64,000 nucleotides of DNA, taken from NCBI GenBank assembly GCA_008087055.1, contig VIEA01000001.1:522342-586341 (forward strand), given 5' to 3'. Below are positions 20,014-24,537 of the stretch, piece after piece. Position 1 is the stretch's first letter, and each line of letters opens with the position of its first letter. Made by a program: the position numbers and the translations under genes. Source of the DNA: Gammaproteobacteria bacterium LSUCC0096. Its GTDB lineage: Bacteria; Pseudomonadota; Gammaproteobacteria; Pseudomonadales; Litorivicinaceae. The notes under the pieces are model-generated. The model saw nothing but the letters and a program-made list of their open reading frames with translations, did not search any database and had not been told where the DNA came from.

Positions 20014-20652
20014 ATGAGCCGTTTGTTTCTTGATGCATCACGCGATCGGCTGTCTGTTGGTATTGAAGTTGGATCAATTTGGATAGCCCGTAATGCGATT
20101 GAGGGTCGCCATGATCAGGTGTTACTCGAATCAATTCGAGTGCTTTGTGAAGAGTCTTGTCAGTCAATCGGTCAAATAACGGAATGTGTTGTGGTTAATG
20201 GACCTGGAAGCTTCACGGGTCTTCGAATCGCCGTATCCTGCATTCATGCGCTAGACCTCGTGCATCCATTACAGGTATTACCCATTGATCAACTCTCACT
20301 ATTGGCTGCGGCGAGTGACACAGACGTTGATTGCGCACTACTCGATGCGCGTATGGATGAAATCTATGTGGGTTCAGATCGACAGGCCGATGGAACTTTT
20401 GGTTGCCTTGAGCTCATGCCAGTGAGTGCGCTCGATCAAACGTACTCATGGGTGTGTCATTCGGAGGAAATTGATCGGTTTTCGATACAGATGAATCCAG
20501 TTTCTCCGACGCTTGAGACGTTGCGACGTTTGGCTGCCGGAATGGATTCATCGAAATGGATCGCAGGACATCAACTGACGCCTTTGTATGTGAGACAAAC
20601 CGTTTCATGGAAACCACTTTCTGAGCAGCCATCGAAATTATATGACCACTGA
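20014..20652 (+). CDS. tsaB: tRNA threonylcarbamoyladenosine biosynthesis protein TsaB
   Basis: A 212-residue TsaB (YeaZ), an actin-like-fold partner of TsaD in forming t6A37 on ANN-decoding tRNAs. The key stretch is VVNGPGSFTGLRIAVS, followed by CALLDARMDEIYVG. Its N-terminal FLDASRDRLSVGIEV replaces the usual LALDTS, so it is somewhat diverged. It overlaps uppP by 11 bases and ends the adk-alr-tsaB-uppP run. In relatives adk and tsaB are often adjacent, here split by alr. Confidence 0.88.
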   Translation: MSRLFLDASRDRLSVGIEVGSIWIARNAIEGRHDQVLLESIRVLCEESCQSIGQITECVVVNGPGSFTGLRIAVSCIHALDLVHPLQVLPIDQLSLLAAASDTDVDCALLDARMDEIYVGSDRQADGTFGCLELMPVSALDQTYSWVCHSEEIDRFSIQMNPVSPTLETLRRLAAGMDSSKWIAGHQLTPLYVRQTVSWKPLSEQPSKLYDH

Positions 20653-21433
20653 ATACGCGTTTTTCCTTGCGCTGATACAAGGCTTAACAGAGTTTCTTCC
20701 GATCTCGAGCTCTGCACATTTGATTTTGCCATCAGCTGTCTTTGGGTGGCCGGATCAAGGCTTGGCGTTCGATGTTGCGGTTCATTTTGGCTCTCTGGGG
20801 GCTGTGATATTAAGTTTGCGTCTTGAGATCCAGAGGGTGGCAACAGGAATGCTTGTGGGGATGGGGCGGCGCTACCCAAGGCATGCAAGGCTCGGATGGC
20901 TCATTGGGTTGGCAACAGTGCCAGCTGTTGTTGCTGGCTTATTAGCCAAAGATTTTATCGAAACAGAACTTCGAAGTGAGCTTGTAATCGCCTGGGCCAC
21001 GATCGGGTTCGGATTGTTGCTGTGGTGGGCGCACTATCAATCCGGCCAGGGTGGTTTTGCTAAAATTCGGGTCCAGGAGGCCTTGGTGATCGGGCTGGCT
21101 CAAGCGCTCGCTCTCATTCCTGGGACCTCGCGTTCAGGCATTACGCTGACGGCGGGGCTTTGGCTCGGTTTGTCTCGGCGAGTCGCAGCGAAATTTTCGT
21201 TTTTACTTTCGATACCCATCATTTTGGGTGCAGCACTGATCAAGACCAAGGATTTGCTCGAAACCTCAGAGCCGGTTGCGTGGGATCTGATTGCGATCGG
21301 TGTTGTCGTCAGTTTTGTTTCAGCCTATCTGTGTATTCGTCTGTTTTTAGCGTTTATCCAGCGAGTCGGGTTACTTCCGTTTGTGGCTTATCGCCTAGCG
21401 CTCGGTCTGATCTTACTCGTTCTCCTTGTATGA
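20642..21433 (+). CDS. uppP: undecaprenyl-diphosphate phosphatase
   Basis: A 263-residue polytopic membrane protein (about eight helices) of the UppP/BacA family, which recycles undecaprenyl pyrophosphate to the lipid carrier for cell-wall synthesis. The two family motifs are GLTEFLPISSSAHLIL near the N terminus and LIPGTSRSGITLTAGLWLGLSR in the centre (catalytic Glu, Ser and Arg). Translation begins inside the end of tsaB. With alr it forms a small peptidoglycan-related pair. Confidence 0.95.
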   Translation: MTTEYAFFLALIQGLTEFLPISSSAHLILPSAVFGWPDQGLAFDVAVHFGSLGAVILSLRLEIQRVATGMLVGMGRRYPRHARLGWLIGLATVPAVVAGLLAKDFIETELRSELVIAWATIGFGLLLWWAHYQSGQGGFAKIRVQEALVIGLAQALALIPGTSRSGITLTAGLWLGLSRRVAAKFSFLLSIPIILGAALIKTKDLLETSEPVAWDLIAIGVVVSFVSAYLCIRLFLAFIQRVGLLPFVAYRLALGLILLVLLV

Positions 21434-21512
21434 CATTGGTCTGAAGTCCTATCAGCTTCTGTAAGAGCGCTCAGTGGCTACAGTCTCTCCACTAAAATTG
21501 AGGAGGGATCCA

Positions 21513-22163
21513 ATGCATATTTCTGTGGTTGCGGTATCGCACCAAATCTTATTGCTCGAAGCGCTGCAGGCTGCAGTTCGTGGCTCTGAATTCCAGATCA
21601 TGTCATTTCCATTCAAAGGACGCTTGGCTTTGGATGAATTTGTGGTGACACCACCGCGTTGTTTGATCCTTGATGGGGGTTGCCCAAAGCAAAGCTCACT
21701 CGTGATGGTCGATCGGGTGAAACGAATGCTCCCCGACACATTGATATTGGTCTATCTCCGGTCAATACGTGCCGTTGAATGTCAGTCATTGCTATCGCTT
21801 GGAGTCACTGGGCTGATTGATATCAGTTGTTCAACTGAGGACGTTGTATCTGCGTTGCGGAAAGTCAAACGACAAGAGGTTCACTTGGCGCCAAAAGTCG
21901 CTCAAGCGCTTGCATTGAGCCGGTTTCGTTCAGCGAATCCATTTGAGAAATTGTCGCCCAGAGAACTGACCGTCTGCGACCTTGTGATCGAGGGCAGTCG
22001 AGCTCCTGATATTGCGCAGCAACTATCTGTCTCAGCGAAAACGGTTAATACCTATCGATACAGAATATTTGAGAAGCTCGGTATCACTTCTGATGTTGAG
22101 TTAACACACTTAGCCTACAACCACGGCATGAAGGGAGTAGAATCCTCGCATGGCCGAGTTTGA
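21513..22163 (+). CDS. gacA: GacA/UvrY-type LuxR regulator with degenerate receiver domain
   Basis: A 216-residue protein collinear with GacA: an N-terminal receiver (1-120) and a C-terminal LuxR helix-turn-helix (about 145-205). The HTH part is almost canonical: KLSPRELTVCDLVIEG, then VSAKTVNTYRYRIFEKLGI and TSDVEL. In the receiver the acidic pair D8-D9 is V8-S9, and the conserved Lys is Ile104. The Thr position near 82 is not conserved, while the phospho-acceptor position keeps Asp54. The start is ATG 21513 with AGGAGG six bases upstream. It overlaps uvrC, as in the classic gacA-uvrC-pgsA cluster. It probably binds GacA-like promoters, but normal phosphorylation looks doubtful. Confidence 0.85.
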   Translation: MHISVVAVSHQILLLEALQAAVRGSEFQIMSFPFKGRLALDEFVVTPPRCLILDGGCPKQSSLVMVDRVKRMLPDTLILVYLRSIRAVECQSLLSLGVTGLIDISCSTEDVVSALRKVKRQEVHLAPKVAQALALSRFRSANPFEKLSPRELTVCDLVIEGSRAPDIAQQLSVSAKTVNTYRYRIFEKLGITSDVELTHLAYNHGMKGVESSHGRV

Positions 22164-23967
22164 TTCATCACGATTTTTAAAAAACCTGACTGTCCGCCCT
22201 GGCGTCTATCAAATGAAAGACGTCGAAGGGAAGGTCTTATACGTCGGTAAAGCGAAAAACTTGAAGGCTCGCGTGTCGAGTTATTTTCGTGGCAGTGGTC
22301 TTGCGTCGAAAACAATGGCGATGGTCGCCAAGATTGCGCACATCGATATTACGATCACCCGTAACGAGGTGGAGGCCTTATTGCTTGAGCAAAATCTCAT
22401 TAAGGACTCAAGGCCGCCTTATAACATTTTGTTACGTGACGATAAGTCCTACCCCTACATTTACATGAATACCGAGCACTCTTATCCTGGGCTCTATTAT
22501 CGCAGAGGAAATCGTCAGAGTACCGGCAAGACCTTCGGCCCATTCCCATCGGCTGGCGCAGTCAAGTCAACACTGAATCTGATACAGAAGACGTTTCAAA
22601 TTCGGCAGTGCGAAGAGAGTGTTTTTCAAAATCGAAGTCGTCCGTGTCTGCAATATCAGATTGGTCGATGCAGTGCGCCATGTGTCGGTTTTGTAAATCA
22701 GTCTGACTACGCAGAAGATCTCGACGATACCCGCCTTTTTCTTGAGGGACGAAGTGGTGAATTGATTGCATCGCTTGAAGCTAGAATGGATGAGGCGAGC
22801 CAATCACTTGAGTTTGAAAAGGCAGCACGCTACCGCAATACGATTTCACGAGTACGTCGTGTGCAAGCTGAGCAAGTCATGGAGAGTGATTCTGCTGATC
22901 TGGATGCGATTGCTGTTTTTCAACAAAGCGGCGGAATTTGCATCGCCATTTTGAGTGTGCGCGGTGGTCGAGTTCTGGGAGTGAATAGCCAGTTCCCAGA
23001 TGCGGGTCTTCTGGAATCACCTGAAGAGATTTTGGATGCCTTTATTCCGCAGTACTACTTGTCTTCCGCTCGGGCTATTCCGCCAGAATTGATCTGTTCA
23101 CATCAGGTCAATGAGGCGACATTAGTTTCAGAGGCACTTGGTCAGGCTTGCCGAAAAAAAGTCAGAATTGCTCACGCTGTTCGCGGTGTACGTCAGCAAT
23201 TTTTGGATTTGGCTAAGACAAACGCTGAGGAGTCCCTCGCCCTTCGTCTTTCTACCCGAGATGGTCAAGCCAAAAGGTTAACGGACTTCGCCGAGCGATT
23301 TCAGGTTGACGCACCGGAACGTATTGAATGTTTTGACATCAGTCACACATCAGGTGAGGCAACCGTCGCAAGTTGTGTCGTATTTGATTCTTCTGGACCA
23401 CTGAAAAGCGATTATCGGATTTTTAATATTACCGACGTGAAAGCAGGTGATGATTATGCGGCGATGCGTCAGGCGTTGACTCGGCGGTATCGCAGAGTGA
23501 AGTCTGGCGAGGTTCCTTTACCAGATGTATTGGTGATTGATGGCGGCAAGGGGCAATTGTCTGAGGCGATAGCTATCTTGAATGAACTTGGCGTGCATGA
23601 TGTGTTTGTACTTGGCGTATCTAAAGGGCCGTCTCGGAAAGCAGGTTTTGAGATTTTGCATCGAGCTGATACGGGTGAAGAGTTAACGCTTCCGGCATCA
23701 GCGCCCGCGTTACATTTGCTTCAGCATATTCGGGATGAAGCGCACCGTTTCGCAATCACTAAGCACCGTCAGGCCCGTGGAAAAGCGCGATCCCAAAGCC
23801 CACTCGAGGGTATTCCTGGCGTAGGTCCGAAGAGGCGGCAATCGCTGTTAAGGCACTTTGGAGGGATGAGAGAACTGGCGCGGGCGAGTGTTTCTGACAT
23901 CGCAAAGGTGACAGGAATGAGTCAACAAACGGCTGAATTGGTGTACTCTGCGTTGCACAACGACTGA
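22150..23967 (+). CDS. uvrC: excinuclease ABC subunit C
   Basis: A 605-residue UvrC that makes both incisions in nucleotide excision repair with UvrAB. The GIY-YIG domain for the 3' cut is PGVYQMKDVEGKVLYVGKAK. The four-Cys region has RPCLQYQIGRCSAPCVGF. The UVR motif (about 205-240) has LEFEKAARYRN. The RNase H-like domain for the 5' cut has CFDISHTSGEATVASCVVF and LVIDGGKGQL. Two C-terminal helix-hairpin-helices are in GIPGVGPKRRQSLL and SDIAKVTGMS. It overlaps the upstream regulator by 14 bases. Confidence 0.98.
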   Translation: MAEFDSSRFLKNLTVRPGVYQMKDVEGKVLYVGKAKNLKARVSSYFRGSGLASKTMAMVAKIAHIDITITRNEVEALLLEQNLIKDSRPPYNILLRDDKSYPYIYMNTEHSYPGLYYRRGNRQSTGKTFGPFPSAGAVKSTLNLIQKTFQIRQCEESVFQNRSRPCLQYQIGRCSAPCVGFVNQSDYAEDLDDTRLFLEGRSGELIASLEARMDEASQSLEFEKAARYRNTISRVRRVQAEQVMESDSADLDAIAVFQQSGGICIAILSVRGGRVLGVNSQFPDAGLLESPEEILDAFIPQYYLSSARAIPPELICSHQVNEATLVSEALGQACRKKVRIAHAVRGVRQQFLDLAKTNAEESLALRLSTRDGQAKRLTDFAERFQVDAPERIECFDISHTSGEATVASCVVFDSSGPLKSDYRIFNITDVKAGDDYAAMRQALTRRYRRVKSGEVPLPDVLVIDGGKGQLSEAIAILNELGVHDVFVLGVSKGPSRKAGFEILHRADTGEELTLPASAPALHLLQHIRDEAHRFAITKHRQARGKARSQSPLEGIPGVGPKRRQSLLRHFGGMRELARASVSDIAKVTGMSQQTAELVYSALHND

Positions 23968-23976
23968 GAGATCTGA

Positions 23977-24537
23977 GTGAACTTACCGAATTTTTTAACA
24001 CTGTTGCGTGTCGTGCTCATTCCTGTGCTGGTTCTTGCGTGGTTTATTCCGTCGCAATATGCGGGAGAACTGTCTGCACTGATCTTTGTTATCGCAGCGT
24101 TTACAGATTGGCTTGATGGTTGGCTTGCACGTCGGTGGAAGCAGGAATCCGCTTTCGGGGCATTTCTTGACCCGGTTGCCGATAAACTCATGGTGGCCGC
24201 TGCTTTGGTATTGTTGGTCGATGCGTTTGATTCAGTGTTAGTGACCTTGTCGGCGATTGTTATCATTGGTCGGGAAATCGTTGTCAGTGCTTTGCGTGAG
24301 TGGATGTCTGAAATTGGGCAGCGTGCACATGTTGCTGTGAGTTGGCTCGGCAAGGTAAAAACTGCGACACAGATGCTCGCAATTACGGTATGTCTCGCTC
24401 TTCCTGTCAAAGAAACTCTATTGCACCCAGGTTTATGGATTTTGGTCATCGCTGCTCTTTTGACGTTATGGTCGATGGGTACCTACCTCAAAGCTGCATG
24501 GCCGCACCTAAGTCTATCGACTAATGAGTCCGACTAG
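23977..24537 (+). CDS. pgsA: CDP-diacylglycerol-glycerol-3-phosphate 3-phosphatidyltransferase
   Basis: A 186-residue inner-membrane enzyme making phosphatidylglycerol phosphate from CDP-diacylglycerol and glycerol-3-phosphate. The CDP-alcohol phosphotransferase signature is visible in full as DGWLARRWKQESAFGAFLDP, continuing VADK, with the required spacing of D, G, A, R, G, D and D. About four to five hydrophobic helices follow. The GTG start at the typical MNLPNFLTLLR sequence lies nine bases after uvrC. It is the last gene of the gacA-uvrC-pgsA group. Confidence 0.96.
   Translation: MNLPNFLTLLRVVLIPVLVLAWFIPSQYAGELSALIFVIAAFTDWLDGWLARRWKQESAFGAFLDPVADKLMVAAALVLLVDAFDSVLVTLSAIVIIGREIVVSALREWMSEIGQRAHVAVSWLGKVKTATQMLAITVCLALPVKETLLHPGLWILVIAALLTLWSMGTYLKAAWPHLSLSTNESD

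Follow-up and report, generated by a model that had tools for sequence, protein, structure and literature searches.

A GacA orthologue with a genus-wide pseudo-receiver in the OM252/Litoricola group, repeatedly lost and probably phosphorylation-independent where kept

Introduction

Response regulators of the GacA/UvrY family carry a receiver whose canonical catalytic residues are DD-D-T-K. In Shewanella, BarA is reported to phosphorylate GST-UvrY, whereas its D54N form stayed unphosphorylated; acetyl phosphate gave no label on GST-UvrY (PMC3171408). In Aeromonas dhakensis, a plasmid-borne UvrY D54A still restored toxicity, so that a GacA-family protein can act without Asp54 phosphorylation; this is, however, a laboratory mutant in a BarA-bearing species and not a natural state (PMC7250320).

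In a 2025 review (PMC12632262), atypical and pseudo-receiver members make up about 6% of a representative set of bacterial receivers, all but two of the 20 atypical regulators considered are orphans, and the mechanisms of bacterial pseudo-receivers are called a mystery. The regulators described there include CosR, HP1043, ChxR and BldM/WhiI, which combine a degenerate receiver with a DNA-binding output and have no known partner kinase. In thermotolerant Campylobacter, CosR is reported to occur in the absence of CosS and to lack the phosphorylated Asp, whereas congeners do have CosS (PMC3938529).

Here we analyzed a stretch of 64,000 nucleotides (the window) from Gammaproteobacteria bacterium LSUCC0096, in which a preliminary description had placed a GacA orthologue with a degenerate receiver at a gacA-uvrC-pgsA locus. 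Locus, Pfam search and alignment all confirm this. The protein resembles GacA/UvrY/SirA in its place before uvrC, its length, its recognition helix and a LuxR domain that shares about 54% identity with GacA of GacS-bearing order members. It differs in its receiver, which has one of the five catalytic residues and is not matched by Pfam; moreover, its genome yielded no GacS, and no GacA-box/rsm gene was seen there. With CosR, HP1043, ChxR and BldM/WhiI it shares the degenerate receiver, the DNA-binding output and the want of a known kinase. CosR, HP1043 and ChxR are, however, of the OmpR type, whereas the window GacA is of the NarL type and keeps its Asp; in addition, essentiality has been described for CosR and HP1043, whereas GacA of the window type has been lost repeatedly. 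BldM and WhiI are of the NarL type. Judged from sequence, a GacA pseudo-receiver without GacS appears to be a new variant within the known atypical orphan response regulators, and among the papers listed from a literature largely without subscription journals, none describes a naturally degenerate GacA in its title or abstract opening. The case bears on an open question, the survival of a two-component regulator beyond its kinase, since one family presents at one locus a series of states: canonical in the second genus sampled and, in the present one, pseudo-receiver under selection, broken, fossil and deleted.

Results and Discussion

Locus, output domain and predicted fold

The gacA orthologue (21513..22163, forward strand) starts with ATG and encodes 216 aa, comprising a pseudo-receiver (residues 1-120, 21513..21872) and a LuxR/GerE DNA-binding output domain (residues 146-201, 21948..22115; PF00196, E=3.8e-16). 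A likely ribosome-binding site read directly from the sequence, GAGGAGGG (21500..21507), lies just upstream of the ATG. The gene order, all on the forward strand, is uppP (20642..21433), gacA, uvrC (22150..23967) and pgsA (23977..24537), which is the place of GacA. uvrC overlaps gacA by 14 nt and served as the locus marker in relatives; it lies directly 3' of gacA in eight of the nine intact genus copies, window included, and in the ninth (G013) the contig ends just after gacA. The 3' end of gacA (22130-22149) holds the likely ribosome-binding site of uvrC, AAGGGAG (22131..22137), also read directly.

A total of 38 genomes were examined: 22 of the genus (including G000, the window's genome), three of the family's other genus and 13 of other families. 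Named matches were HIMB30 (G008; 86%) and MAGs/assemblies titled Litoricola, Oceanospirillales or Gammaproteobacteria (8 loci). HIMB30 is placed in the OM252 clade, proposed as 'Candidatus Halomarinus' and sister to Litoricola, in a paper whose main text, by word search, contains none of GacA, two-component and histidine kinase (PMC8269220).

The best NCBIfam family of the window protein is UvrY/SirA/GacA (NF007018), at 114.8 bits against a cut-off of 280 and with a match only from residue 52 on. When nine full-length genus proteins, window included, were compared with GacA of the seven GacS-bearing order members, mean identity fell from 54% in the HTH to 17.5% in the receiver; the divergence therefore sits in the receiver. 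The recognition-helix region KT[VI]NTYRYRIFEKL is identical in eight aligned genus proteins. These comparisons support the assignment as a GacA/UvrY orthologue, with an output domain that is near canonical, in agreement with the preliminary description.

An AlphaFold2 model built with seven sequences (mean pLDDT 83.8, pTM 0.62) has five alternating beta-alpha units through residue 119, followed by LuxR-type helices. Its Foldseek matches are LiaR, VraR, RcsB and other NarL-family regulators at whole-chain TM 0.41-0.67, modest values because the two domains are differently placed; the four receiver-only PDB entries among the 50 matches listed give target TM 0.83-0.89. A PDB sequence search agrees with these matches. 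The receiver is thus predicted to keep the (beta-alpha)5 fold.

Receiver residues

In an alignment with 14 GacA-like proteins of other genera, the window receiver keeps one of the five catalytic residues, Asp54 (21672..21674). The acidic pair has become Ser9-His10 (21537..21542), the Thr/Ser position holds Leu82, followed by Arg83 at T+1 (21756..21761), and the Lys has become Ile104, preceded by Asp103 (21819..21824). The preliminary description had reported the loss of the acidic pair, the change of Lys to Ile104 and the retention of Asp54, all of which the alignment upholds; its register for the pair, V8-S9, does not stand, and the Thr/Ser loss was absent from its list. Relative to the aligned GacA-like proteins, the window protein has one extra N-terminal residue. 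A Pfam search gave no Response_reg match up to E=1, and with four catalytic residues gone the domain is a pseudo-receiver as defined, on residues, in section 5 of the review (PMC12632262).

The same one-of-five pattern is present in all ten open receivers of the genus (the OM252/Litoricola group) and is therefore neither chance nor a sequencing slip. The genus-wide pseudo-receiver GacA is a real trait, whose range, like the gene losses described below, the preliminary description had missed. Among the GacA-like proteins of other genera, 13 of 14 have all five catalytic residues and one (G036) has four. Twelve of these 14 genes lie beside uvrC on the same strand, G036 among them (about 470 nt between the matches); the exceptions are G030, with its gacA-like gene 20 kb from uvrC, and G026, where it is on another contig. 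A fifteenth protein, from G028, was left out of the residue count because it is encoded away from uvrC and resembles a different regulator more closely.

Ser9, Gln11, Asp54, Tyr81 and Asp103 are invariant across the ten open genus receivers, and Arg83, Arg86 and Cys90 each occur in nine. Asp103 is already found in the family's other genus, beside an intact Lys. By its position, Arg83 could pair with Asp54.

We consider it likely that the protein is an orphan GacA pseudo-receiver regulator, probably phosphorylation-independent, which the window's lineage still uses although the genus can dispense with it. UvrY D54A of Aeromonas dhakensis and CosR of thermotolerant Campylobacter serve as precedents for this reading. 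In a lineage without a recognisable GacS/BarA-type kinase, the GacA receiver would have turned into a pseudo-receiver that kept its fold and Asp54. With the acidic pair that binds metal, the Thr and also the Lys lost, normal Asp phosphorylation is very unlikely. The protein would dimerise and bind DNA through its GacA-like LuxR domain without phosphorylation, in the ground state, and its activity would be set by protein amount or by a remodelled pocket (Ser9, Gln11, Asp54, Arg83, Asp103), not by a kinase. Of the modes that the preliminary description had offered (phosphorylation-independent, constitutive or under another signal), we infer the first to be the most probable, given that four of five residues are gone genus-wide and that none of 25 family genomes yielded a BarA/GacS-like kinase.

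It is possible, although we think it unlikely, that the receiver pocket has been rebuilt into a new sensor, binding a metabolite or acting as a phosphorylation-free switch, so that a two-component regulator would have become a one-component one. The sensor would consist of the genus-specific polar set Ser9, Gln11, Asp54, Tyr81, Arg83 and Asp103, which selection would have preserved as the catalytic residues disappeared.

Partner kinases and phosphorelay proteins

Outside the family, seven of the 13 order genomes (G025, G027, G029, G030, G031, G035 and G037) gave near-full-length BarA/GacS-like kinase matches (687-882 bits), and G032 and G034 gave long weaker ones (446 and 373 bits). As the curated BarA cut-off of 890 bits was reached in none of the 38 genomes, these seven GacS calls rest on near-full-length matches; in the family genomes, matches were covered down to about 128 bits. 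A kinase spanning the model at 686 bits or more was found in none of the 25 family genomes, which answers the search for gacS recommended by the preliminary description. The best family match, 415 bits, covers the kinase-REC middle only (model 269-783), and so does the best in the window's genome (411 bits, model 270-782), which carries no sCache_4. The sCache_4 sensor domain itself occurs in eight of the 13 order genomes outside the family, in six of them over the cut-off, and in none of the 25 within it; the search is not fully sensitive, since it missed G027. For the three genomes of the other genus, the lack of GacS rests mainly on sCache_4 because 17 of 25-53 kinase candidates were scored. 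This genus counts against our main reading, for it shows no GacS yet keeps all five receiver residues; GacS absence alone therefore does not explain the decay of the receiver.

The preliminary description had also allowed for a second canonical GacA, and none was found in the window's genome, which is 99.4% complete. Among its 12 receiver matches, only an ErdR-like protein also carries a LuxR domain; this sole other Pfam receiver-LuxR protein was considered as a second GacA and rejected. It is encoded behind an apparent acetyl-CoA synthetase gene (L013:1048-1701). A LuxR protein at L014 was likewise rejected as a GacA paralogue, as only its HTH aligns (33.5 bits). This 209-aa LuxR-type regulator (L014:1081-1710; G000:C1 about 756237-756866), whose N-terminal part has no receiver match, may be a further degenerate response regulator of this genome.

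If Asp54 were still weakly modified, by some other cellular kinase or by a small phosphodonor, this residue could remain the switch, a scenario that we regard as improbable. The identity of Asp54 in all ten receivers would fit residual phosphorylation, and the Pro at D+4 is kept in seven of them. Section 20 of the review notes that phosphorylation sometimes survives changes of DD, T or K and that pseudo-receivers with an Asp may be inefficient receivers (PMC12632262). Hybrid kinases are also present, for example a GAF-HisKA-HATPase-REC-REC protein at L049 and an NahK/ErcS'-like one at L012:1456-3240. However, both acidic residues, the Thr and the Lys have been lost together, and the Arg found in nine of ten receivers at T+1 occupies a position that is usually small to admit the phosphodonor. 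Furthermore, seemingly similar hybrid kinases, accompanied by an Hpt-like protein, are found in G007, G017, G018 and G021, where gacA is broken or fossil, so the hybrid kinases do not track gacA.

Within L049:2567-6423 (G000:C2 about 445.6-449.4 kb) are a stand-alone receiver, a weak Hpt-like protein, the GAF hybrid kinase and, on the other strand, a LysR-like ORF. The Hpt-like match has E=0.0019; at E<=0.001 the search gave no Hpt match in the window's genome. A 689-aa ORF adjoins the hybrid kinase (L049:6420-8489) and has a long Asp-Pro-Thr repeat and a C-terminal part that looks outer-membrane-like by eye. Kinases resembling that of L049, with Hpt nearby, occur in congeners both with and without gacA. 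The GAF hybrid kinase, stand-alone receiver and weak Hpt are not favoured as a GacS replacement, since similar kinases occur in gacA-broken congeners.

Distribution of the gene and selection on it

gacA is intact in nine of the 22 genus genomes (G000, G002, G005, G006, G008, G009, G010, G013 and G020). In G001 it is cut by a contig end and was used for the receiver only, and in G015 it carries a probable assembly frameshift and was set aside; an assembly error is likely there, given that the uvrC of this short contig is frameshifted as well and dN/dS against G000 stays at 0.05. Four copies with open neighbours are broken, whether by stops, frameshifts, both of these or a large deletion (G003, G018, G019 and G021). 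In G004, G007, G011 and G017 the gene is a fossil, a spacer of about 340 nt without a protein-level match (E up to 0.01) in which only the last ten or so gacA codons are visibly kept; this end persists because the likely uvrC ribosome-binding site lies in it. In G014 the gene is deleted, leaving about 90 nt between uppP and uvrC. G012 and G016 have no uvrC match and their locus was not scored.

In total, gacA has been lost at the locus in nine of the 22 genus genomes, and uvrC is open where gacA is gone. A uvrC tree including the three other-genus rows (5 of 20 inner branches open; G010 19% filled) requires three or more transitions between presence and loss of gacA, G001 and G015 being left out. 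On this tree the broken copies are close to the intact HIMB30. The in-frame stops of G003 and G021 include none common to G018, which may represent a fourth loss. The genus can thus do without gacA, and its repeated loss, which counts against our main reading, says that its function matters little in many relatives. Given at least three losses in the genus, part of the story is pathway erosion.

Where the gene is intact, the signature is different. For the nearest intact pair, G000-G013, the receiver has 19 synonymous changes at 89 sites and five nonsynonymous changes at 271 sites (dN/dS 0.075, Fisher p=8.6e-9), with dN/dS of 0.035 in the HTH and 0.027 in uvrC. Receiver dN/dS was computable in seven of 11 intact pairs and ranged from 0.034 to 0.290, the highest value at dS 1.9; the other four were saturated. 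Compared with HIMB30, the broken copies give 0.28, 0.20, 0.32 (from just 86 codons) and 0.25, while uvrC in the same pairs gives 0.03-0.06; for G019, the deleted or frameshifted parts (residues before 95 and 155-190) were dropped. Counted from the aligned ATG, each of the nine intact full-length copies has 216 aa, and their alignment is free of gaps. Selection therefore maintains the pseudo-receiver where gacA is intact, though less strictly than it does uvrC, and is relaxed where the gene is broken. Purifying selection favours a working protein, and with its modelled fold and low dN/dS the receiver of the window's lineage does not appear to be simply rotting.

These data bear on whether gacA in the window's species is already functionless and merely not yet broken. 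The nine losses, the position of the broken copies near intact HIMB30 and the higher G000-G013 dN/dS of the receiver than of uvrC would agree with such a snapshot of decay; the low values of that pair in both domains against 0.20-0.32 in the broken copies, together with the uniform, gap-free length of the intact ones, make it about as improbable as residual phosphorylation. That the frame is kept merely for translational coupling to uvrC, the GacA protein being irrelevant, is very improbable, for although the 14-nt overlap, the ribosome-binding site inside gacA and the end kept in fossils point that way, coupling would not hold an amino-acid sequence at dN/dS <0.1 (G000-G013), and uvrC remains open without gacA.

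Targets and CsrA

With a GacA-like recognition helix, a GacA-box target is expected for the regulator. Scanning its own genome gave two sites with up to one mismatch, versus one for the reversed control, and 36 sites with up to two mismatches, versus 58 for the control. Of these 36 sites, 35 are inside open stretches of 80+ codons; the sole site outside, L131, has 3 and 2 AnGGA motifs in 300 nt. AnGGA is the CsrA-binding motif. Its background in the window is 0.99 per 300 nt, with five or more in two of 426 pieces. The most AnGGA-rich sites, L137, L142 and L143 (four or five motifs), lie inside open stretches, and we read neither these nor L131 as rsm genes. No rsm RNA gene stands out among the 36 sites. 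The rewiring of Gac/Rsm control suggested in the preliminary description accordingly gained no support, as these scans revealed no rewired target, a result that also counts against our main reading. Other targets or a drifted GacA box may be compatible with this outcome. A TGTAAG half-site lies upstream of the window gacA and has no counterpart in the nearest relative, G013, so it was set aside.

AnGGA motifs downstream of boxes were also checked at 20 loci, one box per genome. Two of them, L092 (8 AnGGA in 350 nt) and L096 (6), are rsm-like and intergenic, both in GacS-bearing order members, and the remaining 18 have at most three motifs. As a positive control, with a single box checked per genome, box plus AnGGA was recovered in only two of the ten order genomes taken from beyond the family. 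The Rfam RsmZ model (RF00166) exceeded its cut-off in none of the 38 genomes, GacS-bearing ones included, and gave weak matches (E<=0.1) in 13 of 38, the window's genome not among them, and in six of 14 control genomes; the RsmZ search is therefore uninformative.

CsrA, another look-up proposed in the preliminary description, is present in 21 of the 22 genus genomes and missing only in G005, which is 68% complete. At least one copy is kept in all nine genomes that have lost gacA, which raises a testable question: does CsrA work without Gac control in streamlined marine bacteria? Most genus genomes have two or more CsrA matches. The window's genome encodes two paralogues, L017 (G000:C1:1408056, forward strand) and L018 (1288382, reverse strand), one of them lower-scoring.
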